From the IMG/VR virus record IMGVR_UViG_3300025880_000084, positions 1 through 26,600 of that record: a stretch of 26,600 nucleotides of DNA; one strand, written 5' to 3'. The notes under the pieces are model-generated. The model was not told the origin of the DNA. It did no database searches and saw only the letters and a program-made list of their open reading frames with translations. The stretch is from a virus. The position numbers were made by a program, and so were the translations under genes. Positions 3,915-20,993 of the stretch are shown piece after piece (the first letter of the stretch is position 1; each line of letters opens with the position of its first letter).

Positions 3915-3922
3915 TATAAATA
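3915..3922 (+). promoter_or_regulatory. T4-type late promoter before the 335-residue structural gene
   Basis: Exact TATAAATA in the 42-base gap after the gp7-like gene, 27 nt before the ATG at 3950. A good Shine-Dalgarno (AAGAGGA, 3936-3942) follows. Spacing matches the promoter at 570. Confidence 0.75.
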
Positions 3923-4957: not shown

Positions 4958-4969
4958 TAGGAACAGACA

Positions 4970-6346
4970 ATGGTTGCAATTATTACAGACGCATTTAAAA
5001 GACAAGTACTAGATAACCTCTATACAAGTGTCAAAGACTCGGCGGCATCATACTATATCGCTATTGGTCGTTCAGAGGATTGGGATAGTTCGGATACGCC
5101 AACTATTCCATTGAATACTCTGAAAGATGTACGAGATTTTAGAAACTCTATGCAGGCTATGAAGTCCGGCGAAGATGTTTCATTTGTTATTCCTCGACAT
5201 AACTGGTCTTCAGGTACAATTTATTCTAGCTATGACGATGCTGTTCAAGGCTATCCTTCAAATGCGTACTATGTACTTACCGATGAGAATGCCATTTATA
5301 CATGTCTACAGCAAGGTAGAGATGCTAACGGCGCAATTGTTACTTCAACAGTTAAACCAACAGGAACAAGCATCTTGCCTCTTACGACTGGTGACGGTTA
5401 TGTATGGAAATATCTGTACACTATTGGTGCTCTCAGGGCTACAAAGTTTACTTCATCAAACTTTGTGCCGGTTGAGCTTATTGGCACGACAGATTCAAAC
5501 TCATCTGCACTTGAGATTGAACAAAAATCAATTCAAACTGGTGCTGTACCTGGAGAGATTACTGCGGTTAAACTTATTTCAGGCGGAAATGGTTACACAT
5601 CGGCTCCCACAATAACCTTTACTGGCAACGGAACTAAAATACCAAAAGCTACTGCGACAGTAAGTGGTGGTACTGTTGTTAAAATTGAGATGGATGATTC
5701 AGGTTCAGGTAAAGCCTTTGGTCGAGGCTATACACAAGCTAGTGCTAAACTAACTGGTGGCGGTGGAACCGGAGCGATTGCTCGTGTCGTAATGGCACCT
5801 GCTCTTGGTATGGGTGGAGATCCACGTGATGATCTTAGATCAACCGGTCTTATGTTCAATACTCAGATGATTGGTAACGAGACTAACTCTATTATAACTG
5901 GTAATGATTTTAGGCAAATTGGTCTTATTAGAGATCCTAAGGTCGGACCTCTTTCAACAGATTCTGACTGGGAACAATCATCTGCAAATGTACTAAATAG
6001 ATTGCATTTCGGTTCTATCAGTGCAAACTTTACTGAAGATAAAGCAATTCTTGGTTCAACCTCTGCTGCATCAGCCGTTGTTGACAAATCAGATTCAAAC
6101 TACGTTTGGTACCACCAGACAGAATTAACTGGCTTTACCCCATTTATCGAGGGCGAGACAATCACAGAAACAGATGGTAACGGTGAAGGCATTTTAGATG
6201 CCGTAGGCATCGATGGCGATGCTAATGCAGAGACACTACCGACGGTTAATAACATGTCTGGCACTCTTCTATACATAGATAATAGAGCGGCTATTGAGCG
6301 GTCCGATGACCAGACCGAAGACGTAAAAATTATTATTCAACTCTGA
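4970..6346 (+). CDS. 8: Baseplate wedge protein gp8 with Gly-rich insert
   Basis: A 458-residue protein; T4 gp8 is 334. In T4, gp8 dimers add to the wedge outside gp7/gp6 and bridge to gp10. The N-terminal region (ITDAFKRQVLDNLYTSV, then SYYIAIGRSEDW near 28-39) and VWKYLYTIGA near 145-154 match the gp8 family as I know it from T4-like phages. The extra length is mostly a Gly/Thr-rich segment at about residues 200-283 (GGNGYTSAPTITFTGNG, then a TATVSGGTVVKIE unit and GGGGTGA), a repeat type seen in many phage and bacterial surface proteins. AGGAA at 4959-4963 supports the ATG at 4970. Its place among the wedge genes supports the call. Confidence 0.85.
   Translation: MVAIITDAFKRQVLDNLYTSVKDSAASYYIAIGRSEDWDSSDTPTIPLNTLKDVRDFRNSMQAMKSGEDVSFVIPRHNWSSGTIYSSYDDAVQGYPSNAYYVLTDENAIYTCLQQGRDANGAIVTSTVKPTGTSILPLTTGDGYVWKYLYTIGALRATKFTSSNFVPVELIGTTDSNSSALEIEQKSIQTGAVPGEITAVKLISGGNGYTSAPTITFTGNGTKIPKATATVSGGTVVKIEMDDSGSGKAFGRGYTQASAKLTGGGGTGAIARVVMAPALGMGGDPRDDLRSTGLMFNTQMIGNETNSIITGNDFRQIGLIRDPKVGPLSTDSDWEQSSANVLNRLHFGSISANFTEDKAILGSTSAASAVVDKSDSNYVWYHQTELTGFTPFIEGETITETDGNGEGILDAVGIDGDANAETLPTVNNMSGTLLYIDNRAAIERSDDQTEDVKIIIQL
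5569..5820 (+). repeat. Gly-rich GYTSAPT/VSGG module inserted in gp8
   Basis: Approximate limits. Encodes GGNGYTSAPTITFTG followed by a TATVSGG strand and a second, diverged GRGYTQASAKLTGGGGTGA unit. Its amino-acid composition differs from the flanking gp8 sequence, suggesting a module inserted into the gp8 scaffold. Confidence 0.55.
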
Positions 6347-6360
6347 GAGTAGAAAACTAA

Positions 6361-9300
6361 ATGTCAATAAAATATACAGATACGCTTTTCGCGACAACAT
6401 ACAAAGATGATTTTAAGGATAGTGATCACTATCATAGAATTCTTTTTAATTCTGGTCGTGCTCTACAGGCAAGAGAATTAACGCAGTCGCAGACAATTAT
6501 TCAACGAGAAATCGAAAGATTTGGTCGTAATGTTTTTAAAGAAGGCGCATCCGTTAATCCAGGTGGCTTAACCATTAATACTCGTTATGAGTTTATAAAA
6601 CTTGATACGACTTCTAATTCATTGCCTACCGACACGTCAACTATGCTTGGCGACGAATTTACAGGACAGAATTCTACTGTTAAGTTTAAAGTTCTTCAGG
6701 TTGTTAATGCTACAGCATCAGATCCTGCAACGCTATATGTAAATTATACTGACACTCTTGGTGGTACTGCTGGCACAACTCCTATTCGAATTGATCCATC
6801 CGAAGATCTTGTTGGGGCGAGTTCAGGTGTTACTGTTACGGCACAGACTACTAACACCGTTGCAAACCCTGCTATCGGCCAAGGTTCTAAAATCTCTGTA
6901 CGTGGTGGTGATTACTTTACACAAGGCCACTTCGTGTTTGCTACAAAGCAAGAGCTTATTCTTTCTAAGTACGGAACATCTCCAAGTGCAGTTGTAGGAT
7001 TTATTGTATCACAAGACATTGTTGGTTCAGGCGACTTTGAAGCATTATTTGATAACCAAGGGGCAACGGCTAACCGTTCCGCACCAGGTGCAGATCGTTA
7101 TCGTATTAGATTACAACTTACTACAAAAGATTTAGTAGACTCTGATGAGAACTTCTTGTTCTTCTGTCGAGTTGTGAATGGTCTTGTTGTCGAAACGGTA
7201 TCTGGAAATAATAGCTATAATATTCTTGAAGATCGCTTGGCAAAAAGAACAAGTGAAACCAATGGTGACTTTACTGCTAAACAATTTAAGATTAAGTATG
7301 TCGAGCATGAGACTGATGACACTAAACTTAAGCTTACTATATCACCTGGTATTGCATATGTAAATGGCTTTAGGGTAGATGTTCCTACACCAAAATCATT
7401 TGATGTAAATAAAGCCCGAGAAACAATTTCAATTAATAACGATGTTGTTGCGGCAACATACGGTAATTATGTTATCTCAGACAACATGGTTGGCGTTCCT
7501 AACATCAACGTGTTTCAACAAAGAAACCTAAGATCAGCGGTTACCCACGGTGGTTCTACTATTGGTACTTGTCGTGTCCGTGCTGTCGAAGAAGATGGTG
7601 CTAACTATAGATTGTATCTATTTGATATCAAGATGAATAGTGGTCAATCATTTAGAAATGTAAAATCAGTCGGTGGTTCGATACTTGACTATGCAGATAT
7701 TCTTCTTGAAAATAATGTTGCAGTTATTAAAGAAGTATCTGACAACAGTTTGTTGTTTGCTCTACCTACTGCTCGACCTAAGATTATATCAGATATTTCT
7801 CTTGAAGTACAACGTAAGTTTAACGCCACACTCGATCCTTCAGGAAACGCATCGCTTACTTTGACTGCGGCTGGCGAAACATTTTCTAATACTAACGATT
7901 GGATTGTATCGGTTGATTCTGATGGTGCTATTATTAGTACATCAATATCAGGAGCAGGGACACAATCTGCTGCGATTAGTGGCGGACCTACAAGTTCTAA
8001 CATCGAAGTTATGGCCAAGGTTAATAAGTCTGCTGGTGCTGTTCGGGCCAAGACGCTTGTTGAAACTACACTTAGTGCTGCGATTGAATCTGACGGAACT
8101 GGTAACAAATTTGTTTCTCTTGATAAGCCTGATCTATATGAAGTTGTTAGATTAACTGACTCAGACTCAAATGGTTCAAGCTTAGCTAATCGTTTTATTA
8201 TTGACAACGGTCAACGTGATAACTGGTATGCACCAGCAAAATTAATTCTTAAGGGCGGCGTAACATCTCCAACAGGCAATGTGTTTGTACGATTTAAATA
8301 TTTTACACACGGCGCGTCTGGAGACTTTTTTGCGGTTAACTCTTATCAGGGCCAAGTTAACTATGAAAATATTCCTTCTCATACATTAAATGATGGCTCT
8401 GTTGTTCAGTTACGTAATGTACTTGACTTTAGACCACGTAAAACTGACAAAGATTCTGACTTTACATCTGCTACTGCTCGTATTAACGAACTACCAGATA
8501 ACACTGATTTGATTCAATTTGACACTCAATATTATCTACCACGTCAAGACAAGATTGTTGCTACACAAGAAGGCGACATTACTGTTATTGAAGGTCAATC
8601 GTCTCTTACTCCGAAATACCCAGAAACTCCAAATAACTCTCTTGAGATTTGGCGATCTGATCTAAATCCTTATACAATATCTACAACCGATATGGTTACT
8701 ACACCAATTGAGAATAAGCGTTATACAATGAAAGACATTGGTAAGCTTGAATCAAGAATTAACCAAGTAGAAGAGATTGCTACACTATCATTACTAGAAC
8801 TTGACCTTAAAAATCTTCTTGTTTTTGATGGCTCTGGTGTTGACAGAACAAAAGCCGGTTTCCTAGTAGATAACTTCTCAGATCAATTAGCAACAGACAC
8901 ATACAACGTTGAATACCGTGCATCAATAGATCCACGTGATAAAATTTTACGTCCGTCATTTATTGAAAACAATATTCTTCTTAAGTATGACTCAGATAAA
9001 TCATCTGGTGTTATTAAGAAGGGTGATAACATTTACCTGAAATACGGAGAAGGCGAATACATTGTACAGGATCAAGCATCTGGTACAATTAACATTAACC
9101 CGTTCTCTGCTATTACAAACCTTGGTGCGGTAACACTTTCTCCAGCTTCAGATAATTGGAAAGAAACTATACGTGCTGCAGATAGAATTATTGACGGTGG
9201 TCAAAGGTTAAATACAAGACAAGCAAATCTGTGGAATAATTGGGAATGGAACTGGGGCGGAACCGATATTAACAACCTGAGCGTTGGTCGCGTTGTAAAC

Positions 9301-11505
9301 ACAAGTACTAATTCATCCCGAGTAAGTTTTTCTCAAAACTGGGGAACAGGCGGTCAGTCAGGCACACAAACAAACACAGTCACTACAGTTAATAGAGTTG
9401 TGCTTAACGAGACTATTAGAGAAATCGTTGGTGATCGTGTAGTTGACGTTGCATTAATTCCATTCATGCGTTCACAAAAGGTTGCGTTTAAAGCCGAAGG
9501 TCTTAAGCCTAACAGTCGCATGTTTGCTTTCTTTGACGATATTGATGTTTCCGATTGGGTAAGAGACGAAGGCGGAGTATTCACACGCGTGTCTGATACC
9601 AACATAGACTATGGTACAAGATACAATACAGCGGTTGCTCACCCAGATGGTGCATCGAGCCTATTCACTGATGGTGAAGGTAAAATGACTGGCACATTCT
9701 TTATTCCTAACACAGATGCTATTAAGTTCAGGGCTGGTTCAAGAGAGCTTAAACTTCTTGATATTACAGCGCCTAACGAAGAAGATGCGTCTTCTGTAGG
9801 TATTGCATTATTTGTTGCTCAAGGTGTTATCGAAACGTTCCAAAGAGATGTTCTTTCAACTCGAATTCTTGGTGTATCTTCTGAAAGATCAACTGTAACA
9901 TCTAATAGAGTTGTTACAAGTAGTTGGTCAGCCCCACCTGTGCGAGTTCGCTGGTCAGATCCAGTAGCCGAATCATTCTTAGTAACAGAAACAGATGGTG
10001 TATTTGTAACAAAGATTGATGCATACTTTAAAACAAAAGATACTAGCATTCCAGTTCAAATGCAATTGCGTCCAATGGTTAACGGTAGCCCATCATCTGA
10101 TACAGTTATACCTGGATCGGTTGTGTTTGTGTCACCGTCTAATGTTAATATTTCTGACGATGCTACTTCTGCAACAACCTTTACATTTGAAGAACCAATA
10201 TTCTTAAATCCTTATACTGAATATGCTGTAGTGTTCCTTGCAGAATCTATTAACTACAATATGTACATCGCAAAAACAGGTGAGTTTATACTTAACTCTA
10301 CTGAGAAGCGTATTACATCTCAACCATATCTTGGTTCGTTCTTTAAATCTCAGAATGCATCAACATGGGAACCAGATCAAACTATGGATCTTATGTTTAA
10401 AATTCATAAGGCAACATTTAGTACTGCAGGTGGTTATGCTGTACTTGAAAATACTGGTACTGTAAGAAATGCATTACCGGAATTTCCTGTACAAGTTAAC
10501 TCAACTAATAATAAAGCAACTATTACACACCCAGGACATGGTTTCCAGGTAGGTGATGTTGCAGAGCTGTTTGGATTTGATTCCGCTCTTAAGTATGGTG
10601 GTATTCTTGGTACTGGTATCATGGGTCCAAGAACTATTACTGCATACGACGAAAACACTTATACGTTTGCTATGGACTCGAATGGTAATAACGATGCAGC
10701 AGTTGGCGGTACAGCTATTACTGCTAAATCTCAAATACCGTTTGAAACTCTTATCCCACAAATTGAAAATATTATTCCAGCCTCTACAAGTATAAATGTG
10801 ACCGGTAAATTCATGACAGGCAAATCTACTGCCGGTGAAGAAACTCCGTACTCGAAGGATCTAAATTACTCGGCACTTGCACTAAGACAAAATAACTTCT
10901 TTAACTCTCCTAGGCTTGTTGCTACTGAAACAAATGAGATATCAAATCTTGCGACTGGTACTAAGTCTGTTGAAGTTAAAATTGATATGAATACAGCAAC
11001 AACTTTTGTTTCTCCGGTTATTGATATGCAAAGAACATCGCTTTGGGCTATTCATAACATTATTGATAACCAGGTTGACTCTGCCGGTGCTGATACAACA
11101 TTAACAAACGTGCCTAATGTGTTCACTCCAGAAACTACTGCGACAGGTGGTAGTTCGGTTGCTAAGCATATTACTCGACCTATCACTTTGGCCGAAGATG
11201 CTGTTGGACTTAAAATCTTGTTAGCAGCTAACAGACCTTCTGTTTCAGATTTTCGAGTCTATTACAAAGCAATTTCAGATGATGCATTGTTTACTGAGAC
11301 GCCGTGGACAGAAACAACTAAGATCAATAATCTACCTACAGATGAAAATCCTTTGATCTACCGTGACTATGAATATTTGGTTGGTGGTAATGCCGGACTA
11401 TCAGCACCATTCACTAAGTTCCAAGTAAAAATTGTTATGACTTCTTCTAATAATGCTAAGGTTCCGACATTCAAAGATCTACGAATTATCGCCTTGGCAG
11501 TGTGA
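6361..11505 (+). CDS. Giant DUF4815-type baseplate/fibre structural protein
   Basis: A 1714-residue protein. The N-terminus carries the DUF4815-type signature (YHRILFNSGRALQARELTQ, residues about 24-42, then IIQREIERFGRNVFKEG), typical of large virion proteins in marine T4-like phages. A tryptophan cluster (WNNWEWNWGG, about 956-965) lies mid-protein. The segment DPVAESFLVTETDGVFVTKI (about 1200-1219) begins a beta-sandwich-like region found in the same group of proteins. A further beta-rich domain follows from about residue 1365. It sits directly after gp8, where T4 has gp9 and gp10, and no gp9, gp10, gp11 or gp12 homologue is recognisable here; it may replace that peripheral baseplate layer or connect fibres to it (inference). 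Its stop overlaps a GTG/ATG of the next frame. Confidence 0.7.
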   Translation: MSIKYTDTLFATTYKDDFKDSDHYHRILFNSGRALQARELTQSQTIIQREIERFGRNVFKEGASVNPGGLTINTRYEFIKLDTTSNSLPTDTSTMLGDEFTGQNSTVKFKVLQVVNATASDPATLYVNYTDTLGGTAGTTPIRIDPSEDLVGASSGVTVTAQTTNTVANPAIGQGSKISVRGGDYFTQGHFVFATKQELILSKYGTSPSAVVGFIVSQDIVGSGDFEALFDNQGATANRSAPGADRYRIRLQLTTKDLVDSDENFLFFCRVVNGLVVETVSGNNSYNILEDRLAKRTSETNGDFTAKQFKIKYVEHETDDTKLKLTISPGIAYVNGFRVDVPTPKSFDVNKARETISINNDVVAATYGNYVISDNMVGVPNINVFQQRNLRSAVTHGGSTIGTCRVRAVEEDGANYRLYLFDIKMNSGQSFRNVKSVGGSILDYADILLENNVAVIKEVSDNSLLFALPTARPKIISDISLEVQRKFNATLDPSGNASLTLTAAGETFSNTNDWIVSVDSDGAIISTSISGAGTQSAAISGGPTSSNIEVMAKVNKSAGAVRAKTLVETTLSAAIESDGTGNKFVSLDKPDLYEVVRLTDSDSNGSSLANRFIIDNGQRDNWYAPAKLILKGGVTSPTGNVFVRFKYFTHGASGDFFAVNSYQGQVNYENIPSHTLNDGSVVQLRNVLDFRPRKTDKDSDFTSATARINELPDNTDLIQFDTQYYLPRQDKIVATQEGDITVIEGQSSLTPKYPETPNNSLEIWRSDLNPYTISTTDMVTTPIENKRYTMKDIGKLESRINQVEEIATLSLLELDLKNLLVFDGSGVDRTKAGFLVDNFSDQLATDTYNVEYRASIDPRDKILRPSFIENNILLKYDSDKSSGVIKKGDNIYLKYGEGEYIVQDQASGTININPFSAITNLGAVTLSPASDNWKETIRAADRIIDGGQRLNTRQANLWNNWEWNWGGTDINNLSVGRVVNTSTNSSRVSFSQNWGTGGQSGTQTNTVTTVNRVVLNETIREIVGDRVVDVALIPFMRSQKVAFKAEGLKPNSRMFAFFDDIDVSDWVRDEGGVFTRVSDTNIDYGTRYNTAVAHPDGASSLFTDGEGKMTGTFFIPNTDAIKFRAGSRELKLLDITAPNEEDASSVGIALFVAQGVIETFQRDVLSTRILGVSSERSTVTSNRVVTSSWSAPPVRVRWSDPVAESFLVTETDGVFVTKIDAYFKTKDTSIPVQMQLRPMVNGSPSSDTVIPGSVVFVSPSNVNISDDATSATTFTFEEPIFLNPYTEYAVVFLAESINYNMYIAKTGEFILNSTEKRITSQPYLGSFFKSQNASTWEPDQTMDLMFKIHKATFSTAGGYAVLENTGTVRNALPEFPVQVNSTNNKATITHPGHGFQVGDVAELFGFDSALKYGGILGTGIMGPRTITAYDENTYTFAMDSNGNNDAAVGGTAITAKSQIPFETLIPQIENIIPASTSINVTGKFMTGKSTAGEETPYSKDLNYSALALRQNNFFNSPRLVATETNEISNLATGTKSVEVKIDMNTATTFVSPVIDMQRTSLWAIHNIIDNQVDSAGADTTLTNVPNVFTPETTATGGSSVAKHITRPITLAEDAVGLKILLAANRPSVSDFRVYYKAISDDALFTETPWTETTKINNLPTDENPLIYRDYEYLVGGNAGLSAPFTKFQVKIVMTSSNNAKVPTFKDLRIIALAV

Positions 11506-11543
11506 TGAATAATAGATATATAAAAATAGAAGGCTCCGCTAAT

Positions 11544-11732
11544 ATGGTCAAGGACCGAAATACTGGTGCTGTCATAAATACAAGTAGAGCTGATATAGAA
11601 AGAGCACGTGCGGCAAAGCGCAAAAGGCTTGAAGAAGAACAAGAGATTAATAATCTTAAAGATGACGTAAGTCACATGAAAAAAGACATGGCAGATATCA
11701 AGACTTTGCTAAAACAACTGGTGGACAAGTAA
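11544..11732 (+). CDS. Small charged coiled-coil protein
   Basis: A 62-residue protein from the ATG at 11544 (MVKDRNTGAVINTSRADIER...). The same frame is open upstream to a GTG at 11502 and an ATG at 11505 that overlap the previous stop, giving 76 or 75 residues. I prefer 11544 because AGAAGG (11528-11533) lies 10 bases before it and the MVKDRxTGAxINT beginning looks like a family N-terminus. The C-terminal half (EINNLKDDVSHMKKDMADIK) is a clear heptad-type coiled coil, so it probably oligomerises. Function unknown; possibly a virion or assembly helper. It abuts the next gene without a gap (TAAATG). Confidence 0.65.
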   Translation: MVKDRNTGAVINTSRADIERARAAKRKRLEEEQEINNLKDDVSHMKKDMADIKTLLKQLVDK

Positions 11733-12095
11733 ATGGCAGTAACTACAATTGACCTAAACGACTTAGTTAGTATTTGGCGGACCAAGACTAATACAATTAG
11801 TACACATCTAGGTGACATCGCAACTCTTACTACTACAGCAAACGGAAATGTTGTTGTCGCCATTAATGAATTAGAAGCTAACCACAATACTTTACAAACT
11901 GCATTTGATAATCGACAAGACGGTACAGATTCTGCGGCTGTTCAACAAATGATTGATACAAGCATTGCTACCATTAATGGTAATACACTTATTAATGGTA
12001 CTGTGGGTGGAGCCAAGTTAACATCAGCCACAACTTTAAATATAATTGACTCAAACGGAACGACAGTTAAAACGATTATTGGCGCAGGTGCTTAA
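11733..12095 (+). CDS. Small predicted structural protein
   Basis: A 120-residue protein starting immediately after the previous stop. The N-terminal 70 residues look helical (LVSIWRTKTNTISTHLGDIA, then VVVAINELEANHNTLQTAFD), with a coiled-coil-like pattern. The C-terminal 45 residues are Gly/Thr/Asn rich and beta-like, ending TVKTIIGAGA. This helix-then-strand form is common in short phage fibre or fibre-adaptor proteins. I do not recognise the family. The small neighbours and absence of gaps suggest it belongs to the same late virion operon. Confidence 0.55.
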   Translation: MAVTTIDLNDLVSIWRTKTNTISTHLGDIATLTTTANGNVVVAINELEANHNTLQTAFDNRQDGTDSAAVQQMIDTSIATINGNTLINGTVGGAKLTSATTLNIIDSNGTTVKTIIGAGA

Positions 12096-12097
12096 TA

Positions 12098-13084
12098 ATG
12101 GCCTTGCGCAAACCGCTCAAAAGGTTACCTAACGGTGACCTGAAGTCTATGAATGCTGCTGAAATTGCTTTAATAGTTGATGAAACTATTAGGCAGTATG
12201 GTAATAGTCCGTCCGTCGTATTAAATATAGATCAGGGTAATGGCACTTTAACTACTTTAGTTGATTATTATATGATAGCGGGTCCATTAGCGACGTCGTC
12301 TGGCCCAGAACCAACCGCTGATGCCGCAACTTACCAATCTGTTAACTACGATAATGTTAGAGATCAAAGCGCCGGTGATTATACTGATTATCTAAATAAT
12401 AATTTTGGTGGTACTAATCCTAAACGTGCTCCTACAATATACGCAAATTATTCATTTCCAGTTTATATGACTGCATCTGGAAATATTCAGGCTATGAACG
12501 CTACTGACTTTTTAGATACATTTATTGAACCAGCTATAACAAAACTTATTGAATCAGGAACAACTGAAAGGCAGGCTGGCACGTATTTTATATCAACCTC
12601 AACATCTGAAGCCGGAGCGACACTTGTAAATGCTGCTCCAGTATTTCAAGACAGTGTAGCTGATGTAAATGCGTTTAATCTTGGATCTTTACCCGAGGTA
12701 CAGGATCAGTCATTTATTGCCACTAGTTTCTATTTACATAGAGTTGATCCCGCGCCTTCTGTGGATTATGTTACGCCAGCATGTCTTAAGATTAATACCA
12801 ATGACGTGCAAGATACGCCGGCTACAGCGCTTGGTGAAATGTTACAGGATTGGGTACAATGGGCCGCGATTAATCATACCGGTTCACGCATTCGATATCA
12901 GATATACCCATCGACATATACAACTTATGGCGTAGCCCGTGGATCAGGTATAACTAACTCATATGTTGCACTTTATGTGACAAAGTTTGAACAACCAGAT
13001 GCTACAACTTACTATGCACAAAACGTGCCAACGGGTTCTCCGACTGTGCAAAGTACGCACTTTCTGCGTATTGGAGCCAGCTAA
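12098..13084 (+). CDS. Unrecognised 328-residue virion-region protein
   Basis: A 328-residue protein with no signal peptide or membrane segment. The N-terminus is basic (MALRKPLKRLPNGDLKSM) followed by a helix (AAEIALIVDETIRQYG). The rest is mixed alpha/beta and rich in Tyr, Thr and Ala, with several aromatic strands (IYANYSFPVYMTASGNIQAM; RIRYQIYPSTYTTYGVARG). I do not recognise a family and give no function; its position inside the tail block makes a tail or baseplate component likely. It starts two bases after the previous stop with only a weak ribosome site, consistent with coupling. Confidence 0.55.
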   Translation: MALRKPLKRLPNGDLKSMNAAEIALIVDETIRQYGNSPSVVLNIDQGNGTLTTLVDYYMIAGPLATSSGPEPTADAATYQSVNYDNVRDQSAGDYTDYLNNNFGGTNPKRAPTIYANYSFPVYMTASGNIQAMNATDFLDTFIEPAITKLIESGTTERQAGTYFISTSTSEAGATLVNAAPVFQDSVADVNAFNLGSLPEVQDQSFIATSFYLHRVDPAPSVDYVTPACLKINTNDVQDTPATALGEMLQDWVQWAAINHTGSRIRYQIYPSTYTTYGVARGSGITNSYVALYVTKFEQPDATTYYAQNVPTGSPTVQSTHFLRIGAS

Positions 13085-13102
13085 TATAATGAGAGGTTTA
13101 TT

Positions 13103-14266
13103 ATGGCAAAGTTTTCAGGTAAAATCAAATCTACTAAATTTGTAGATACATCTGAGAAAACTATTGAAGTTCTTTATGAAGAGGGAACCGATAATCTTAT
13201 GGTATTTTTTGTACCTATAGATTATACTAATCAAGACTTCTTAGATCTTATGGATGAGATCACTCTTGAAGATGTTCAAGACTACACAAGATTATATTTT
13301 GAATCTCAATCCCAAGCTAAACATAAAGCCATCGAACAAGCTGCAAAAGATATGCTTGCTGTGTGGCTCGTTGATATTCAGAAAGAAATTGACGAACAAG
13401 TAACTCGTCGGTTTGAAGAAGCTGATGAATATAAATCACAGCAAATGGCTTTACTTCAGAGCGAAATGTCTGATGAGATAGAAAAACGGTTTGCCGAAGT
13501 TGATGAGTACAAAATAAAACAGACTAGAATTCTCCAAACTGAAGTCGATGCACAGGTTGAATCTCGTTTTGCTGAAGTCGATGAGTACAAACTAGAGCAG
13601 ACTAAAAATCTTCAAACTGAACTTGATGAACAAGTAGAACGCCGTGTAGCTGAAGGATATATTAAAGTCGATGAGTACAAGGCAGAGCAGACTAGGATTC
13701 TTCAGGCTGAAGTTGATGCACAGATAGAATCTCGCTACGATGAAGTTGCTTTGTATAAAGAGCAACAGCTTAAAATACTTGAAGATGAAATCTCGTTACA
13801 AGTAGAATCTCGTTTTGGTGAAGTCGATGAATATAAGGAAGAGCAAATAAAGATTCTTCAGGCTGAGATAGATGAACAGGTTAAAGTTAGATATGAAGAA
13901 GCAGATCAGTATAAAATAGAACAATTAAAAGTTCTTCAAAGTGAAATTGATCAGCAGGTTGTTGCTAGATATGATGAGGCAGATCAATATCGCGATAGCC
14001 AGATTACTCAAGTAAAAGCTGAAATGTATAAGAAATTTAATATGTCAGTACCTACAGTCAATCCGGTTACACCAAAAAACGTTGCAGATTTTATTATAAA
14101 TAATTTCGAAGATGAAGATACTGTTTTTAAAACTAAGCTAGCTATTTTCGATTTGCCCGAAGTAAAAAATAGTCCGAGCCGTGAAATGAAAATGAAGGTA
14201 CGAAAGGCAAAATCGATACCACAATTATTTGCAGCGTATAATGAAATACAACATAGTAACAGTTAA
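13103..14266 (+). CDS. Coiled-coil protein with eight 26-residue repeats
   Basis: A 387-residue protein. Residues 1-100 form a small alpha/beta N-terminal domain (KFSGKIKSTKFVDTSEKTIE...) running into a helix. Residues 103-313 are eight consecutive repeats of 26 residues (one has a four-residue insert, the last is 25), each of the form RFAEVDEYK..Q...LQ.E.D.QV.., strongly charged and predicted to be one long helix. Residues 314-387 form a separate C-terminal domain starting after a proline-containing hinge (NMSVPTVNPVTPKNVADF). GAGAGG at 13091-13096 fixes the ATG at 13103. It has no recognised T4 counterpart; possibilities are a long fibre or whisker-like rod, a tape-like spacer, or a scaffold. 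It overlaps the glycosyltransferase gene by 26 bases. Confidence 0.7.
   Translation: MAKFSGKIKSTKFVDTSEKTIEVLYEEGTDNLMVFFVPIDYTNQDFLDLMDEITLEDVQDYTRLYFESQSQAKHKAIEQAAKDMLAVWLVDIQKEIDEQVTRRFEEADEYKSQQMALLQSEMSDEIEKRFAEVDEYKIKQTRILQTEVDAQVESRFAEVDEYKLEQTKNLQTELDEQVERRVAEGYIKVDEYKAEQTRILQAEVDAQIESRYDEVALYKEQQLKILEDEISLQVESRFGEVDEYKEEQIKILQAEIDEQVKVRYEEADQYKIEQLKVLQSEIDQQVVARYDEADQYRDSQITQVKAEMYKKFNMSVPTVNPVTPKNVADFIINNFEDEDTVFKTKLAIFDLPEVKNSPSREMKMKVRKAKSIPQLFAAYNEIQHSNS
13409..14041 (+). repeat. Tandem array of eight 78-bp coding repeats
   Basis: Imperfect in-frame repeats, each 78 bp (the fourth is 90 bp because of a four-codon GYIK insert, the last is 75 bp). Invariant or near-invariant positions are R1, E4, Y8, Q12 and E19, with hydrophobic residues mainly at 2, 5, 8, 16, 20 and 24. 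Protein identity between adjacent units is clearly higher than DNA identity, suggesting old duplications kept by selection on the helix. Confidence 0.85.
14095..14102 (+). promoter_or_regulatory. Possible intragenic late promoter for the glycosyltransferase cassette
   Basis: Exact TATAAATA inside the 3' part of the coiled-coil gene (codons for about residues 331-334), 138 bases before the glycosyltransferase ATG at 14241. Could give the cassette its own late transcript. One of two exact octamers buried well inside a coding region in this window, so chance is possible. Confidence 0.4.
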
Positions 14267-14912
14267 ATTTGGCACAAAGTATTCTTCTAATTTTGTGAAC
14301 AAATTATATAATGATATAAAGCTTAAATGCACAGATGCCTTTGAGTTCTATTGCTATACTGACGATCCTACAGATATAGATCCTAATATTACAATCATTA
14401 ATAATTTTAGTTCCCCTACACTTAAAGGTGTATGGAATAAGCTTAGGCTATTTGATGAAGCTATGCCTATGCAAGGAAAAACGATATTCCTAGATCTCGA
14501 TACATTAATTAATGATGATATTATAAATCGTTTGAATGGTGGGCATGATTGGTCAAAGTTGACTGTTATCAATGAATTACATAAAGTTAAGAAGCTGTAT
14601 GGCCGATTATCTAACTATGATGTTCATATCAACAGTTCTGTTATGACATGGGATGCCAGTAACCCTGATATACATAATGTATGGAAACATTTTAACACTG
14701 GCTTACGTGATTATTATATGCGGAAGTATCCGGGTATGGATAGGTTTTTAGCACACGAAGATTTTGAGTTGGCTTATATAATACCCGGATATTCGGCGTC
14801 ACGCTCACGGTTTGCTAAAAACGAAATTAGGCCAAGTTCTGCAGCTATTATAACATATGAAGGATTAGACATTGAATTCGAAGATCTTATATCGGACGCT
14901 CAAGCTTTGTGA
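14241..14912 (+). CDS. GT-A-type glycosyltransferase
   Basis: A 223-residue protein beginning MKYNIVTVKFGTKYSSNFVN. The DLD at residues 85-87 within TIFLDLDTLIND is the DxD metal/nucleotide-sugar motif of GT-A enzymes; it is followed by NSSVMTWD (131-138) and HEDFELAYI (172-180), which fit the acceptor/catalytic part of this type. Expected reaction: transfer of a sugar from a nucleotide donor to an unknown acceptor in the cytoplasm. An in-frame TTG at 14229 would add four residues, but ATG 14241 matches the usual start of this type. There is no good ribosome site; the gene overlaps the coiled-coil gene by 26 bases and probably depends on coupling. First gene of a four-gene cassette. Confidence 0.75.
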   Translation: MKYNIVTVKFGTKYSSNFVNKLYNDIKLKCTDAFEFYCYTDDPTDIDPNITIINNFSSPTLKGVWNKLRLFDEAMPMQGKTIFLDLDTLINDDIINRLNGGHDWSKLTVINELHKVKKLYGRLSNYDVHINSSVMTWDASNPDIHNVWKHFNTGLRDYYMRKYPGMDRFLAHEDFELAYIIPGYSASRSRFAKNEIRPSSAAIITYEGLDIEFEDLISDAQAL

Positions 14913-15492
14913 AGAGATATATGATGAATCAATGTATGGCGTTGAAGATCTATATCGAATTAAAGACTTATCACATGCGATAGATGAAAATCATTGGAAT
15001 GGTAAAAAGTGGTTAGCAGAAAAACTCTATGAATTATATGACCATGATGCCGGTAAAATTTTGGTTGTCGGAGGTTGGTATGGTATGATGGCTTATCAGC
15101 TAAGGCAGATGTGGCCTCAATCACAGATGAACATTGAATCTACAGACATGGATCCAATGTGTGAGGCGTATGGACATAAACTATTTCATGATTATGACAT
15201 AGCATTCTCTACCCTCAACATAACTGACTCTTTAATTATACCACAGTTTACTGCACTTGTAAACACCTCTTGTGAGCATATGGAGCAAAAAGATTTAATT
15301 AATTTAATTGAAGCTAAAGATCCTGATTGCTGGGTTGCATTTCAATCTAACAATTATACTGAATTAGACTCGCATATTAACTGTCACCCTACTGCCGAGA
15401 TGTTTGCTGATAGCTTAGATCTTGAATGGGTTGCACATGTTGAAACTTTAAACTTAGGGGACTTTGATCGGTTCATGGTTATTGGAAAATGA
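14872..15492 (+). CDS. SAM-dependent methyltransferase-like protein
   Basis: A 206-residue protein with a Rossmann-type nucleotide motif KILVVGGWYGMMAYQL (residues 62-77; GGxxG = motif I), an acidic strand end NIESTDMDP (87-95) where SAM hydroxyls are usually bound, and VNTSCEHME (130-138) at the motif IV position. The N-terminal RIKDLSHAIDENHWNGKKWL precedes the fold. It probably methylates a small molecule, sugar or protein; the substrate is unknown. I take the TTG at 14872 as start because AAGGA (14860-14864) is well spaced before it and the added 20 residues read as a sensible helix; the alternative is ATG 14932. Overlaps the glycosyltransferase by 41 bases and the DUF454 gene by 4. Confidence 0.7.
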   Translation: MNSKILYRTLKLCEEIYDESMYGVEDLYRIKDLSHAIDENHWNGKKWLAEKLYELYDHDAGKILVVGGWYGMMAYQLRQMWPQSQMNIESTDMDPMCEAYGHKLFHDYDIAFSTLNITDSLIIPQFTALVNTSCEHMEQKDLINLIEAKDPDCWVAFQSNNYTELDSHINCHPTAEMFADSLDLEWVAHVETLNLGDFDRFMVIGK

Positions 15493-15905
15493 ATATTAAA
15501 AAAACTGCATGGCTGGTGTTAGGATTTCTTAGTTTAGGAATGGCATATATTGGCGTCATTCTGCCTGGAATTCCATTTAGTATATTTCTAGTGTTAGCAG
15601 CATATTGTTTTAGTAAGTCTAGTAAACGTATGCATGATTGGATTTATAACCATAAATATTTTGGACCATTCCTTACAAACTGGATACAATATAAAGTGTT
15701 TCCGACCAAAGGTAAATATGCAATGGTAGTTGTAATGACATCAAGCGTATTGTTTCTTTGGTTTACGACCGAGAACATTAAAGCTGTTATGTGGTCTGGC
15801 GGATTCATGGCGCTCGTTGCAATATGGGCATGGCGTTATCCTGGTACGATAAATGAATATGACAGCCGAATTGAACAAGGTAAAAAGATTGCATGGCTAA
15901 AGTAG
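15489..15905 (+). CDS. DUF454 (YbaN-like) inner-membrane protein
   Basis: A 138-residue membrane protein. Residues 7-41 are hydrophobic and contain the DUF454 core GVILPGIPFSIFLVLAAYCF, followed by the conserved amphipathic stretch SKSSKRMHDWIYNHKYFGPF (about 42-61); two more membrane segments lie at about 77-92 and 99-115. Pattern and length match bacterial YbaN (about 125 residues), whose function is not established. It begins within the methyltransferase stop codon (ATGA overlap) and ends inside the next glycosyltransferase gene, so it is made together with them. A cellular-type membrane protein in a tail-gene block is unusual; it might anchor or assist the transferases at the host inner membrane, or act like a holin, but neither is shown. 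Confidence 0.8.
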   Translation: MNIKKTAWLVLGFLSLGMAYIGVILPGIPFSIFLVLAAYCFSKSSKRMHDWIYNHKYFGPFLTNWIQYKVFPTKGKYAMVVVMTSSVLFLWFTTENIKAVMWSGGFMALVAIWAWRYPGTINEYDSRIEQGKKIAWLK

Positions 15906-16783
15906 TATTTAGTATTTTCATTGACATACCAGAAGAAAGATTAGATAATCCTGGATGGTATGAAGATGGAAAACTAGTAACAACTGATAAAAGTCACCAG
16001 ACTAAAATGTCTTTGCTGTCTAATGCTGATCTAGTTACAGAACGTCAGCGCCAGTACGCCAATGATATTGGTGCTGACTATATACTATATCAATATGATA
16101 GTACATACAAAGAATTTTTTGATGACATAAAAAATAGGTTTACAGAGATCAGTGAGTATGATATAGTAAACTTCTATAAACACAGTCGTATGAGGGCTTT
16201 GGCCGATGAATATGATTACGTTGCATATATGGATTTTGACGTTGTACCTAATACAACGGAATCTATATTTGATGCTCATGATGTAGATAATAGATTTGCT
16301 GTAGCAAATTCTAATAGATTAGCTGCAAGAGGTAAATCTATGAAATCTGCTAACTATAATCTGTGTATTAGAAATCCGGCTTCAAAGTATTGGAACACAC
16401 ATGCTATGCTTTTTGAAGTGGGTTTAGAATGCGAAAATGATGTGTTTAATACTGGAATTATGGCCGGGTCAAGCGAAGTAATTAAGAGACTAGATTACTT
16501 CAGGGATTTTGATAATACCATTAATCTCATGACAAATATTAAACATGATGAGTTTTCAATATATCCAAAAAACATTCAGCGTATATTTAATTATGATAAT
16601 GAAACGGTTTTTAGTTATTATATTAAGTCGCGTGATGTTAAGGTACAGTACATGGATAATCTTTGGCACTACCTAGTTGATGAGTTGATAAGTCAACCAA
16701 ATCAAATGAATCCTAAGGCTAAACTTTATCACTTCATCAATAAAAAAATGCAGTGGATAAAAGGTATAAATAAGGGTAAGTAG
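15893..16783 (+). CDS. Second glycosyltransferase, GT-A type
   Basis: A 296-residue protein. The DFD of YMDFDVVP (residues 114-116) is the DxD motif; NTGIMAGSS (186-194) and HDEF (218-221) occupy the positions of the acceptor-loop and acidic catalytic elements in similar enzymes, and LYHFI (278-282) resembles the late His motif of many GT-A enzymes. It differs clearly in length and sequence from the first glycosyltransferase, so the two probably add different sugars or act in sequence. The ATG at 15893 overlaps the DUF454 gene by 13 bases. The late promoter for the following gene lies inside its last codons. Confidence 0.75.
   Translation: MAKVVFSIFIDIPEERLDNPGWYEDGKLVTTDKSHQTKMSLLSNADLVTERQRQYANDIGADYILYQYDSTYKEFFDDIKNRFTEISEYDIVNFYKHSRMRALADEYDYVAYMDFDVVPNTTESIFDAHDVDNRFAVANSNRLAARGKSMKSANYNLCIRNPASKYWNTHAMLFEVGLECENDVFNTGIMAGSSEVIKRLDYFRDFDNTINLMTNIKHDEFSIYPKNIQRIFNYDNETVFSYYIKSRDVKVQYMDNLWHYLVDELISQPNQMNPKAKLYHFINKKMQWIKGINKGK
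16765..16772 (+). promoter_or_regulatory. T4-type late promoter before the Ig-like/fibre unit
   Basis: Exact TATAAATA in the last codons of the second glycosyltransferase, 33 nt before the ATG at 16806, with AAGAG at 16791-16795 as ribosome site. Starts a new late unit after the cassette. Confidence 0.7.
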
Positions 16784-16805: not shown

Positions 16806-17150
16806 ATGGCACAATATGAAGAACTTCAAATCGATAAAGGCACTGATGTAACAGTTCAATTGGAATTGGAAGACACTAGTGGTAACCCGAAGAATCTTAC
16901 GAACTACACTGTTGCGGGTAAAATTAAAAAAACCTACAGTTCAACAGATTCGACAGCATTTACGACTGAGATCCAAGCACCTTCAACAGCTGGTGTTGTA
17001 AATCTAAGCCTAACGAATGTGCAAACAAATGCTCTAAAAGCCAGTAGATACGTATACGATGTTGAGATTTCTTTTGTAGACAGTGATTCAAACACTGTTG
17101 TAGAAAGAGTCCTTGAAGGCACAATTGAAGTTACGCCGTCCGTAACATAA
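16806..17150 (+). CDS. Small Ig-like / BppU-N-like structural protein
   Basis: A 114-residue protein with alternating strands from LQIDKGTDVTVQLELED (residues 7-23) to VERVLEGTIEVTPSVT at the C-terminus. The form, a fixed-length beta sandwich with DKGTDxTVxLxLxD near the start and a final GxIxVxPxVT strand, is like the N-terminal domain of BppU-type upper baseplate proteins and similar small marine-phage proteins. Likely role: an adaptor or decoration that attaches the following fibre, whose gene starts 15 bases downstream. Family call is moderate; function is inferred from position and fold type. Confidence 0.6.
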   Translation: MAQYEELQIDKGTDVTVQLELEDTSGNPKNLTNYTVAGKIKKTYSSTDSTAFTTEIQAPSTAGVVNLSLTNVQTNALKASRYVYDVEISFVDSDSNTVVERVLEGTIEVTPSVT

Positions 17151-17165
17151 CTTTAAGGAATTCTC

Positions 17166-20100
17166 ATGAAGGTCGTTATCGGAACGAATACCATCGTAAA
17201 AAAAGTTACTGTCGGAACACCACTTAGAATTGGTTCTGCAGCAAACGGTAGTCTTACCGGATTAGATGATGTTAATGGCTCAATAAATCTAGCTGACGGT
17301 ACAATTCTTCAGTATGATTCGGCTTCTGCCAAATTTAATCACATATCATTATCTGCGGTTGTAGGTGGTGGACTTACTGTTTCTTCATCAGGCATGGGTT
17401 CAGTATCGGAGACTGGCGGAACACTAACATATGTTGGACCTAGCGTTGATAGCGTTCGATCACTATTTAATGTTACCTATGACAGTAGTGCTATTGGCAC
17501 ACTAATTACGACAGGTGGAACCACTAGACTAACAGGTCCTACACCTAATCAAATTCGTAGTCAATTTAGTGCCGGAAATGATTTACAATATAACGCTGCT
17601 ACAGGTGAATTCTCTGTTACGGTCCCAAGCGGATCAGCTGGGTTTGACAGTAACTTCAACACGAAGTCTACAACAAATCTACCAGAAGGTTCTAACCTAT
17701 ATTATACTGACTCTCGTGGGCGAGCATCTATTTCTGTTAATGATGCAGGCGGATATGGCTCACTTGCGTATAATGCTCCGACAGGTATATTAACCTATAC
17801 TGGCCCAAGTCTTGCTGATATAAGATCTGGAATTAATGTTGGTGCGAACTTAGCATACGATTCTGCTACAGGTAAAATTACATTTACTGGTTCGTTAGGC
17901 GGAACATTCGATTCTGACAATGCGCGTAAGTCAATTAGTGTTGTTGATGCCGGTGGACAAGGTTCGCTTTCATACAACAATAACACAGGTCAAATATCAT
18001 ACCAAGGAGCGAGCGACTCTGATACGCGCGGGTTGATTAGTGCAACTGGTGATATTGCTTATAATCAAAACACAGGCATCATTAGTTTTACTGAAAAAAC
18101 TGATGCACAAATACGAGGGTTGTTTAATGTCAGTGGGGACCTTGGTTACGATACTGGTACTGGTGTATTTTCTGTTGATCTCGGATCGGTGGATGTAACT
18201 GATTCTGCAGTTACTCGAGCACTATTTTCTGTTACAAACGATGCCGGTGATTACGGGTCACTTGCTTATAACGCCGCGTCTGGACAATTTGTATTTACAA
18301 AGGTTACTGACTCTGATATAAGAGGATCTTTATCTGCAGCCGGCGATTTGGCATACAATCAGACAACAGGCCAATTCAGTTATTCTAAACGAACCGATGC
18401 CGACATTCGCAGTTTGTTATCTGCATCAGGCGACCTATCATATAATTCTGGTACTGGTCAATTCAGTATTACAACAGGTGCACATTATCAAGACTCAGAT
18501 GCACGGCATGCCATTAGCTTTAGACACACTGCAGACTCAATTGCTAATGTCAATGAATATGGAACAGTAACGTACAACCAAACAACCGGTGACGTCGTAA
18601 TATACGGTACGCGTGATTCTGATATTCGTGGATCGATGAGTTTTGTTGATGCTGGTGGATTAGGTTCACTTGCATACAATGAAAATGAAGGTCGAGTTAC
18701 ATATACAGGACCAAGCAATACTGATATCGCCGGAACATTATCGGCTACGACAGATCCTCTCTCAATGGGTAAACTTACTCTTGATTCTAGCAAAGGCCAG
18801 TTTACACTTAAGCTAGAAGATGATAGTGTTAGAGCTTTATTCAGCGTTGTTTCTGATCAACAAGGTGGAGCGGATCTAACATATGATTCTGCGACAGGTC
18901 AATTTGTATTCAGTGGTCCAAGCGATCTCGATCTTAGAAGCAAAATAAGCGTTATCGATGCTGGCGGTGACGGTTCCCTTACATACTTTGAATCGGGTGG
19001 TGTGTTTACATACACCGGTCCAAGTCCTGCCGAAGCACGTGCGCACTTTAGCGGCGGCCTTGGAGTAAATTATAACGAAGCAACCGGCACATTTAGACTT
19101 GACAGCTCTGCAAATATTGTAACTGGTAGCATTGTTACAGGTCAATTAACTTCGGGTATAGTTAATGCTAACGCCGAATTAAATGCCAATACAATAAACG
19201 CGCTGACGGACTCAAGTAATATTACTATTACTGGTAATGCTATTACTCTTAAAGGTACATCAGATCGCATCTTGCTCGACACTCAGTTTCTTCATACAAC
19301 AGACAATAGAATTATTTTCGCGGTTGATGATAGTAATACTGCTAACTACCAAGGTGGTGGTTTTCAGATTGGTGGCGGGTCAAATTCAAAATATTTTGCC
19401 TATAGCGTAGCTAATGATTTCTTTGCTACAAATACTGGTTTGTATATTCCGGGTGATATGTCTGGTAAGACAATTGACTCGTTAAACAAACGTATAGATG
19501 AGCTTCCTGACTCTGCGCAAATGAAAGGTATCCTTTCTGCTGGTCCTGGATTATCCTACGATAATACTAACGGCATATATCGGATTATCTCCTCAGGCGT
19601 CACAGCAGCCACGTATGGCAACGCCACAAACGTATCTCAGCTTACTGTTGACTCTCTAGGCATTATAACTGGTGCAGTTAATACTCCTATATCAGTTGTA
19701 ACCGGAAATACTTTTGATTCTGTAACCGGTCAGTTAACTATTACGACTGCAACAGACAGTTTTAATTCTACCATAACGCTAGATCCATTTAGTACAACAA
19801 ACTTGGCCGAAGGCAATAAACTATATTACACAAGAGCTAGGTTTGACTCGGCACTTGGAGATGCGGCTTCTACTGCTACTGTTAGATCATATATCAGTGC
19901 TGGACAAAGTTTAAACTACAATCCTACAACAGGCGTAGTTTCAACTAATCAGGCACTTGATTCAACCAGTAATGTTACTTTTAATAATATAGTACAGACC
20001 GGCACATTACAAGGACCTGCAGATTTTATTATTGATCCGGCTGCGCACGGCGATGCAACTGGTACGGTAAGAATTCTTGGTAATCTTCAGGTTGAAGGTG

Positions 20101-20993
20101 TACAAACAACTATTAATTCTACTGCAATAAGTCTTAATGATAAGAATATTGTATTAGCTGATAGTGCAGCAGATTCATCTGCTCTTAACGGTGCTGGTTT
20201 AACTATCGGCGGAACAAACATTGTAGACAAGCCTACGTTTACATATGCTCATGCTACTCAAAGATTTGTATTCAACCGTAATATCCAAGCAGATAGTTTT
20301 TATGGTGATGTAACAGGTAACGTGACTGGCAACGTGACTGGTCAAGTATCTGATATATCAAATCATAGTACAACTGATTTATCTGAAGGTAATAATAAAT
20401 ATTATACTGTTGCCAGAGCTAGAAATGCAATACAGGCCGTAGATGCTGGTGGTGACGGATCATTCGTATATGATTCTGCTATAGGCACGATGACATACAC
20501 AGGCCCTAGTCCTACCGAAGTTCGGGCACATATCTCTGTTACTGATAATGGTGGTGACGGTTCCATGTCATATAATGCCGCAACAGGCGTTATATCATAT
20601 ACAGGACCTTCTGCATTAGAAACTCGAACTCACCTATCATTGACTGATGCTGGCGGTGACGGATCGATGACCTACGATTCTTCGACTGGCGTGTTTGTAT
20701 ACACGGGGCCGTCAGAAACTGAATGGTATCAGCACTTCAAAGACAATGCCGATAGCCTTGGTGATATGATATGGGATTCTGCTTATGGAACAAAGGGCGG
20801 ACTTAGATTACACCCAAGGCATATTACTGGATTAGACGAAGTAGGTGTTGACTCATTCGTTGCTGCACAAGAACACTTGATGATATACAGTGGAACTACC
20901 GGAAGACTGAGAAAAATTGGTCTTAACACATTAGGATCTGTTGTCGGTGGTGGCGGCGGATCAGGCACATTACTTGGTTATATTAATCTGTAG
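17166..20993 (+). CDS. 1275-residue repeat-rich tail fibre protein
   Basis: A long beta-repeat protein. Residues 1-45 form a distinct head (MKVVIGTNTIVKKVTVGTPL...), probably the virion attachment end. The body consists of about 18 modules, eight of them full-length, of the type VDAGGxGSLxYNxxTGxxxYTGPSxxxxRxxIS, mixed with shorter SAxGDLxYNxxTGxFS units. Three TTxLxEGxxLYYTxxR elements occur (about residues 165-185, 878-895 and 1060-1080). The end is Gly rich (GGGGGSGTLLGYINL). I see no cysteine in the whole chain. The composition is typical of trimeric fibre shafts in T4-like marine phages. AAGGAA at 17155-17160 supports the ATG. Probably a host-recognition or connecting fibre made from the promoter at 16765. 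Confidence 0.75.
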   Translation: MKVVIGTNTIVKKVTVGTPLRIGSAANGSLTGLDDVNGSINLADGTILQYDSASAKFNHISLSAVVGGGLTVSSSGMGSVSETGGTLTYVGPSVDSVRSLFNVTYDSSAIGTLITTGGTTRLTGPTPNQIRSQFSAGNDLQYNAATGEFSVTVPSGSAGFDSNFNTKSTTNLPEGSNLYYTDSRGRASISVNDAGGYGSLAYNAPTGILTYTGPSLADIRSGINVGANLAYDSATGKITFTGSLGGTFDSDNARKSISVVDAGGQGSLSYNNNTGQISYQGASDSDTRGLISATGDIAYNQNTGIISFTEKTDAQIRGLFNVSGDLGYDTGTGVFSVDLGSVDVTDSAVTRALFSVTNDAGDYGSLAYNAASGQFVFTKVTDSDIRGSLSAAGDLAYNQTTGQFSYSKRTDADIRSLLSASGDLSYNSGTGQFSITTGAHYQDSDARHAISFRHTADSIANVNEYGTVTYNQTTGDVVIYGTRDSDIRGSMSFVDAGGLGSLAYNENEGRVTYTGPSNTDIAGTLSATTDPLSMGKLTLDSSKGQFTLKLEDDSVRALFSVVSDQQGGADLTYDSATGQFVFSGPSDLDLRSKISVIDAGGDGSLTYFESGGVFTYTGPSPAEARAHFSGGLGVNYNEATGTFRLDSSANIVTGSIVTGQLTSGIVNANAELNANTINALTDSSNITITGNAITLKGTSDRILLDTQFLHTTDNRIIFAVDDSNTANYQGGGFQIGGGSNSKYFAYSVANDFFATNTGLYIPGDMSGKTIDSLNKRIDELPDSAQMKGILSAGPGLSYDNTNGIYRIISSGVTAATYGNATNVSQLTVDSLGIITGAVNTPISVVTGNTFDSVTGQLTITTATDSFNSTITLDPFSTTNLAEGNKLYYTRARFDSALGDAASTATVRSYISAGQSLNYNPTTGVVSTNQALDSTSNVTFNNIVQTGTLQGPADFIIDPAAHGDATGTVRILGNLQVEGVQTTINSTAISLNDKNIVLADSAADSSALNGAGLTIGGTNIVDKPTFTYAHATQRFVFNRNIQADSFYGDVTGNVTGNVTGQVSDISNHSTTDLSEGNNKYYTVARARNAIQAVDAGGDGSFVYDSAIGTMTYTGPSPTEVRAHISVTDNGGDGSMSYNAATGVISYTGPSALETRTHLSLTDAGGDGSMTYDSSTGVFVYTGPSETEWYQHFKDNADSLGDMIWDSAYGTKGGLRLHPRHITGLDEVGVDSFVAAQEHLMIYSGTTGRLRKIGLNTLGSVVGGGGGSGTLLGYINL
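17380..20735 (+). repeat. Diverged tandem GSLxYNxxTG/YTGPS coding modules
   Basis: Approximate limits. Around 18 in-frame modules of about 19-37 residues, each pairing a Y(N/D)xxTG turn with a following (Y/F)(T/S) strand and often GPSxxxxR. Clear full copies begin near residues 189, 257, 356, 497, 595, 1085, 1122 and 1159. The region between about residues 640 and 1075 is mostly non-repeat, so the repeats form two blocks. Confidence 0.7.

Follow-up and report, generated by a model that had tools for sequence, protein, structure and literature searches.

A stretch of 26,600 nucleotides from a virus (positions 1 to 26,600 of IMG/VR record IMGVR_UViG_3300025880_000084; this whole 26.6-kb stretch is referred to here as the window) derives from the tail gene region of a marine T4-like phage, and raises the question of what a set of overlapping genes for predicted sugar-modifying enzymes does among tail genes. 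Four open reading frames (ORFs), all on the plus strand, are involved: GT1 (14241-14912; ATG start, with a TTG at 14229 as an alternative) encodes a small GT-A-type, GT8-like glycosyltransferase, MT (14872-15492; starting with TTG, 7 nt downstream of an AGGA motif) a predicted class I S-adenosylmethionine (SAM)-dependent methyltransferase, the next ORF (15489-15905) a DUF454 membrane protein, and GT2 (15893-16783) a second predicted GT-A glycosyltransferase with a DFD motif. These positions, and the overlaps of 41, 4 and 13 bases between successive genes, agree exactly with an earlier note on this DNA, and the enzyme identities proposed there hold, with a PHROG match and a DxD motif for GT1, a GT-A fold and a DxD motif for GT2, and a methyltransferase fold for MT. 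Because the ratio of nonsynonymous to synonymous divergence (dN/dS) is 0.03-0.16 for the four genes in pairs with unsaturated dS (the window lineage against close relatives, and other close pairs), we regard them as real genes under purifying selection; the DUF454 ratio is a rough one, the dS of its pair being 2.8. Comparison with relatives shows that the conserved and co-inherited unit is GT1-MT-GT2, with DUF454 as a non-core insert at the MT/GT2 junction, and we propose, with a probability of about one half, that this three-gene core adds a short methylated glycan to a tail or fibre protein of the virion in the cytosol.

The GT1-MT-GT2 core and the DUF454 insert

Loci were fetched with each cassette gene separately and with a GT2 profile (the best 80 of 238 relatives), and their gene order was mapped computationally. 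Co-oriented loci read coil-GT1-MT-GT2, and in very many of them GT3, a paralogue of GT1, comes next. The gene following GT1-MT is GT2 at 35 of 37 deduplicated viral loci, DUF454 at one (the window lineage), and a gene for an FkbM-type methyltransferase at one (L102), and MT ends in an ATGA at 24 of the 37. Pairwise protein distances across 24 loci correlate at 0.92 for GT1 and MT, 0.87 for GT1 and GT2, and 0.86 for MT and GT2, and at 0.44-0.74 for these enzymes and the flanking genes. The earlier note had treated the four genes as one unit and had asked whether they would be scattered in relatives; GT1, MT and GT2 stay together, DUF454 is scattered, and a four-gene unit is not borne out, as among the mapped relatives only the window's own lineage has DUF454 at the junction. 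Its picture of a methylated-glycan module within the tail block survives (the core is co-inherited, its motifs are invariant, and enlarged versions carry sugar-type genes), though not as a 'self-contained' system of four coupled genes, DUF454 being a lineage-specific insert and a promoter of the cassette's own not being conserved.

The core has several variants. L087 and L154 have GT2 alone, without GT1 and MT, and enlarged islands add genes for DegT aminotransferase, carbamoyltransferase, radical SAM/SPASM, FkbM methyltransferase and epimerase proteins. In the form resembling that of Pelagibacter phage Mosig the core is inverted as well as enlarged (MT-GT2-GT3 ... GT1), and such islands also carry DegT aminotransferase, QueC-like, FkbM methyltransferase, radical SAM and carbamoyltransferase genes. 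At L095 (7525-11990) and L103 (7481-11138) the interval between GT3 and the fibre chaperone gene holds arrays of three to five radical SAM genes, or fragments of such genes, with SPASM/twitch domains at the N-terminus. A tandem GT2-GT2 fusion of ~570 residues is encoded at L004 (2905-4620), L017 (5194-6903) and L043 (4237-5955), and other contigs have two GT2 genes side by side.

The DUF454 product matches Pfam PF04304 with an E-value of 1.4e-29 (102.8 bits, against a gathering score of 35.1). Outside the window lineage and L043, where the gene adjoins the GT2-GT2 fusion, none of the fetched DUF454 relatives lies within a GT1-MT-GT2 cassette. Its neighbour elsewhere in marine phages is a gene for a ~400-residue 5-aminolevulinate synthase (PDB match 9e-132; 14 fetched contigs), and other neighbours are heme oxygenase and ferredoxin-dependent bilin reductase genes, or HSP20 and others; the arrangements with 5-aminolevulinate synthase, or with heme oxygenase and bilin reductase, are found among L044-L077 (e.g. 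L046, 4770-6414; L062, 2440-4122; L069, 4768-6393). In cells, cluster 1 type 11 secretion system (T11SS) genes have both DUF454 and haem oxygenase among their most frequent neighbours (PMC12282271). Membership of DUF454 in the core was rejected on its absence from the junction in other core loci and on these heme and bilin neighbours. Judged by the company it keeps, DUF454 is probably a lineage-specific passenger with a separate, heme-linked association, a role in heme being likelier than one in sugar metabolism, and it may belong, so far unnoticed, to phage tetrapyrrole cassettes. The MT/GT2 junction tolerates insertions, and at L102 (1332-2072) the FkbM-type methyltransferase gene (Pfam 9.9e-12) occupies the same position as DUF454 in the window.

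Folds and motifs of the core enzymes

GT1 matches the glycosyltransferase family phrog_1962 (6.7e-8), its DxD motif lies at residues 85-87, and D85, D87 and K67 are invariant in 32 relatives; its own dN/dS values are 0.04-0.16. Profile matches to GT8 and glycogenin structures are weak (E 0.013-0.4), and the GT8 profile has no significant match to GT1 of the window, with one of the 32 aligned relatives matching at 7.9e-4. The H-x-G-x-x-K-P-W-like motif at the C-terminus of GT8 enzymes is absent from GT1, and a related form, VHFTxSxNKPHEW, is found in the GT3 paralogue of relatives. Because this motif is missing we label GT1 as GT8-like rather than assigning it to CAZy family GT8. A tblastn search with GT1 of the phage isolate collection gave zero matches. 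Profile-profile comparisons of GT1 with GT2, and of GT1 with a further GT-A-like protein designated X (see below), revealed no reliable relation (probability 3-6%), and the three are therefore handled as separate families.

Neither MT nor GT2 has a family match in Pfam, PHROGs or NCBIfam, and because PDB sequence-profile searches gave nothing usable for either, their predicted folds were used. The AlphaFold model of MT (pLDDT 92.6) has Z-scores of at least 8 to all 1000 chains of solved structures with which it was compared, the best being 18.1. It has a seven-strand Rossmann fold, with strands at residues 61-66 and 86-92, a glycine-rich loop (G67-G71) after strand 1, and an acidic residue (D92) after strand 2, and the motifs shared by 22 relatives are a GGWYG loop, D92xD94 and TSCEH, with G71, D92, D94 and T132-C134-E135 invariant. 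By the fold of this model MT is a predicted class I SAM-dependent methyltransferase, and the structural matches point to no specific substrate. In GT2 (model pLDDT 87.5) D114 and D116 of the DFD motif are invariant in 19 sequences, and the model has 141 Foldseek matches at E≤0.001, with all 50 of the matches listed being GT-A enzymes; in the VIA comparison, 432 of 999 chains have Z-scores of at least 8. The best match is domain 1 of A064R of the chlorovirus PBCV-1 (Z 14.5, root-mean-square deviation 3.2, 187 residues aligned), with LARGE1, WbbM, LgtC and others slightly lower, and GT2 is accordingly modelled as a GT-A fold glycosyltransferase.

The GT2 family is essentially virus-restricted, with 238 viral relatives against five contigs of metagenome-assembled genomes (MAGs) in a search of cellular genomes covering 84,980 species. 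These five GTDB contigs (L148-L152) are short and are binned as Flavobacteriaceae, Pelagibacter and Gammaproteobacteria. L148, L150 and L151 look like phage contigs binned as bacteria, since phage tail genes lie beside GT2. A cellular origin of GT2 was rejected on the rarity of these matches, the shortness of their contigs and the adjacent tail genes at three of them.

The tail slot and its expression

In the window the core is bordered on its left by a coiled-coil gene (13103-14266, plus strand), which overlaps GT1 by 26 bases and encodes a conserved N-terminal domain of ~150 residues (coilN) followed by coiled-coil repeats, and on its right by a fibre-assembly chaperone-like gene (16806-17150, plus strand) with matches to phrog_1084 and phrog_3304 ('L-shaped tail fiber protein assembly'). 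Next to the right is a gene for a large repetitive fibre-like protein of 1275 residues (17166-20993, plus strand; phrog_697 structural protein, 1.7e-14). The occupants of this slot were surveyed by sampling on the downstream chaperone so as to avoid sampling by enzyme, using the best 80 of at least 591 matches, which were not deduplicated. Among the 70 loci with at least 3 kb upstream, 64 have GT1, GT2, GT3, MT or the pair X-Y within 4.5 kb upstream of the chaperone, and five of the remaining six have a glycosyltransferase or methyltransferase gene farther up, giving 69 of 70 within 8 kb. Almost every left border is a ~150-residue coilN protein corresponding to the N-terminal domain of the coiled-coil gene product of the window. 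That coiled-coil protein is a possible acceptor or scaffold, and the large fibre-like protein (17166-20993) is a second candidate acceptor.

Many slots hold a different pair of genes instead, with X encoding a GT-A-like protein with an invariant DxD, and Y an oxygenase-like protein with the pattern GGxISWHNN...H...R. X and Y have no significant match in Pfam, PHROG or NCBIfam, and a PDB profile search with Y found nothing; Y is a putative 2-oxoglutarate oxygenase by its motif pattern. The X-Y pair lies between coilN and the fibre chaperone at L184 (5807-7298), L192 (6523-7949) and ~50 chaperone-sampled loci, and in OQ984149.1 (151597-153029). Phage C48C1 has the order coilN-X-Y-chaperone, and both enzyme sets, the GT1-MT-GT2 type and X-Y, co-occur in L162 and L195. 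The presence of unrelated modification enzymes in one slot suggests one common target near the fibre. We tentatively suggest, as a reading somewhat short of even odds, that marine T4-like phages have a 'tail decoration slot' in which GT1-MT-GT2 or X-Y alternately modify tail fibres, either with a methylated glycan or by hydroxylation followed by glycosylation.

The late octamer TATAAATA is present in six copies in the window, all on the plus strand, where 3.2 are expected and 10 of 100 shuffled sequences reach six. The earlier note placed one late octamer before the cassette and one at its end; that these are signals of the cassette is not confirmed. The copy at 16765-16772 (plus strand) lies inside GT2 at its 3' end and precedes the chaperone gene by 41 nt. 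At 83 of 85 distinct loci TATAAATA occurs no more than 120 nt upstream of the chaperone, usually at a distance of 31-50 nt from its start, and we therefore assign the 16765 copy as the promoter of the chaperone-fibre operon. The copy at 14095-14102 (plus strand) is within the coiled-coil gene, 146 nt upstream of GT1, and of 72 distinct loci only three have a copy within 300 nt upstream of GT1, two of these belonging to the window lineage; a late promoter of the cassette's own was rejected on this ground. A further copy at 3915-3922 (plus strand) precedes by 35 nt the opening gene of a contiguous run of tail genes (3950-16783) with no gap greater than 42 nt, of which the cassette is the distal part, and from this layout it is the likely source of the cassette transcript. 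Since they would be read from the tail operon that starts after 3915, the enzymes are predicted to be late products made together with the tail proteins. Around the cassette, intrinsic terminators and sigma-70 sites are no more frequent than expected by chance. The sixth copy of TATAAATA, at 25163-25170, is inside a gene for a 1323-residue fibre protein, 547 nt before the next gene, and is probably there by chance.

Other genes in the window include gp53- and gp6-like baseplate wedge genes, a gp8-like gene, genes for small virion proteins, and two large repetitive fibre-like genes. The closest isolate relatives of gp6 include those of phage C48C1 and Pelagibacter phage HTVC008M. The 1714-residue product of the gene at 6361-11505 matches the VrlC protein of Mosig at 32-33%, and the gp14 side is beyond the window edge.

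Proposed target of the modification and comparison with known systems

We propose that GT1, MT and GT2 would act in the cytosol late in infection, with the two GT-A enzymes adding sugars sequentially and MT methylating the sugar to give a short methylated glycan; the order of the steps, the identity of the sugars and the placement of the methyl group are all conjectural. The acceptor would most likely be a tail or fibre protein of the same or the next operon, such as the coiled-coil protein or the large fibre. A cytosolic virion acceptor is favoured because of the position in the tail operon, the near absence of GT2 from cellular genomes, and the scarcity of membrane proteins: at least two hydrophobic segments are predicted in only 3 of 695 island gene products (two DUF454 proteins and one fatty-acid desaturase) by a measure that detects 36 of 43 DUF454 proteins. 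Virion glycosylation systems of such a kind exist, since in PBCV-1 A064R two glycosyltransferases and one methyltransferase finish a methylated capsid glycan (PMC9614988), and phages Che8 and Rita have glycans on their major capsid proteins (PMC11256854). Several points weigh against this proposal. Location beside fibre genes is no proof that the fibre is the target; the match of GT2 to A064R is only ~2 Z units above those to other GT-A enzymes and so does not indicate a shared substrate; and a glycosyltransferase working in the cytosol on a lipid-linked or core acceptor that the host supplies could do without a membrane gene. The nucleotide-sugar genes of enlarged islands would equally suit work on lipopolysaccharide (LPS), and similar islands are interpreted by the authors of the pelagimyophage study as host O-chain modification (PMC7029224).

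An alternative is that late in infection the core alters the LPS core or O-chain of the host surface and blocks re-adsorption or superinfection. The GT8 enzymes of pelagimyophage islands are read in this way in PMC7029224, the nucleotide-sugar, carbamoyl and FkbM genes found in large islands are of the sort usual in surface polysaccharide loci, and the GT2 model matches the LPS enzymes LgtC and WbbM. We nonetheless consider it rather unlikely, as the 695 island genes include no GtrA/GtrB-like protein, flippase or other multi-pass membrane partner beyond the DUF454 proteins and the desaturase, expression from the tail operon would coincide with virion assembly, GT2 relatives are nearly missing from cellular genomes, and the slot of many relatives holds X and the oxygenase-like Y, a better fit to protein modification. 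A different target altogether (phage DNA, a host protein or a small sugar metabolite) would be compatible with the many kinds of substrate on which GT-A and class I methyltransferase folds act, and phage glycosyltransferases can glucosylate DNA, as established in T4. However, no base-hypermodification genes were seen beside islands with annotated genes and the conserved feature is the position in the tail slot, making this improbable.

We regard it as very unlikely that all four genes constitute one pathway with DUF454 anchoring or transporting a lipid-linked sugar: DUF454 of the window is translationally coupled on both sides, and at L043 it is likewise beside a GT2 fusion, but the other deduplicated core loci lack it at the junction, and its associations elsewhere, with 5-aminolevulinate synthase or heme oxygenase-bilin reductase in phages and with T11SS genes in cells, are of another kind. 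That the genes are decaying or inactive morons without a present role is scarcely credible; the loss of GT1 and MT from L087 and L154 could be so explained, but the dN/dS values already disfavour it and the catalytic residues are invariant. Should the preferred target, a tail protein, be correct, T4-like phages of the ocean would glycosylate their fibres with enzymes of their own, with possible effects on adsorption or on resistance to proteases, and the accumulation of glycosyltransferase, radical SAM and sugar genes between fibre genes would be explained. If the 'tail decoration slot' is real, abundant ocean myoviruses would share a general tail-fibre glycosylation system.

Among known systems, A064R of PBCV-1 (with A061L), an enzyme of the chlorovirus capsid N-glycan, resembles the phage core in combining two glycosyltransferases with one SAM methyltransferase, and its domain 1 is the closest structural match of GT2. 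It is, however, one fused protein of three domains that comes from a eukaryotic virus and works on an N-glycan, whereas the phage genes are in a different order with ~12% identity, and because they are three separate ORFs we file the core as analogous to the A064R combination and not as a member of it. Mycobacteriophages Che8 and Rita, as cited in PMC11256854, are similar in that phage-encoded glycosyltransferases put glycans on virion proteins, but going by the description available there the target is the major capsid protein, the glycosyltransferase genes are elsewhere in the genome, and no paired methyltransferase is described. Phage tetrapyrrole cassettes such as hemO-pcyX-alaS (PMC11480375) have genes that adjoin DUF454 relatives in marine phages; they bear on the passenger DUF454 only, and the window showed no heme gene. 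The Gtr-type O-antigen clusters of phages share with the core phage-encoded glycosyltransferases and a possible host-surface target. Gtr clusters contain a membrane flippase and a polyprenyl-phosphate transferase, and such hallmark membrane partners are lacking among the island genes.

A published counterpart is the 'host recognition cluster' of pelagimyophages (PMC7029224), a variable tail-fibre region between the VrlC gene and gp14 containing GT8-type glycosyltransferase and radical SAM genes. The general island is already published; the searchable literature yielded no account of GT1-MT-GT2 as a co-inherited core, of the slot between coilN and the chaperone, of the exchange of the core with X-Y or of DUF454 as a non-member, and the accessible text on the cluster names no conserved GT1-MT-GT2 core or coilN-chaperone slot. 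The host recognition cluster of Mosig contains the MT, GT2 and GT1 core genes, and because this cultured phage, whose host is Pelagibacter ubique HTCC1062, carries a version of the core, the published reading of host O-chain modification becomes directly testable.

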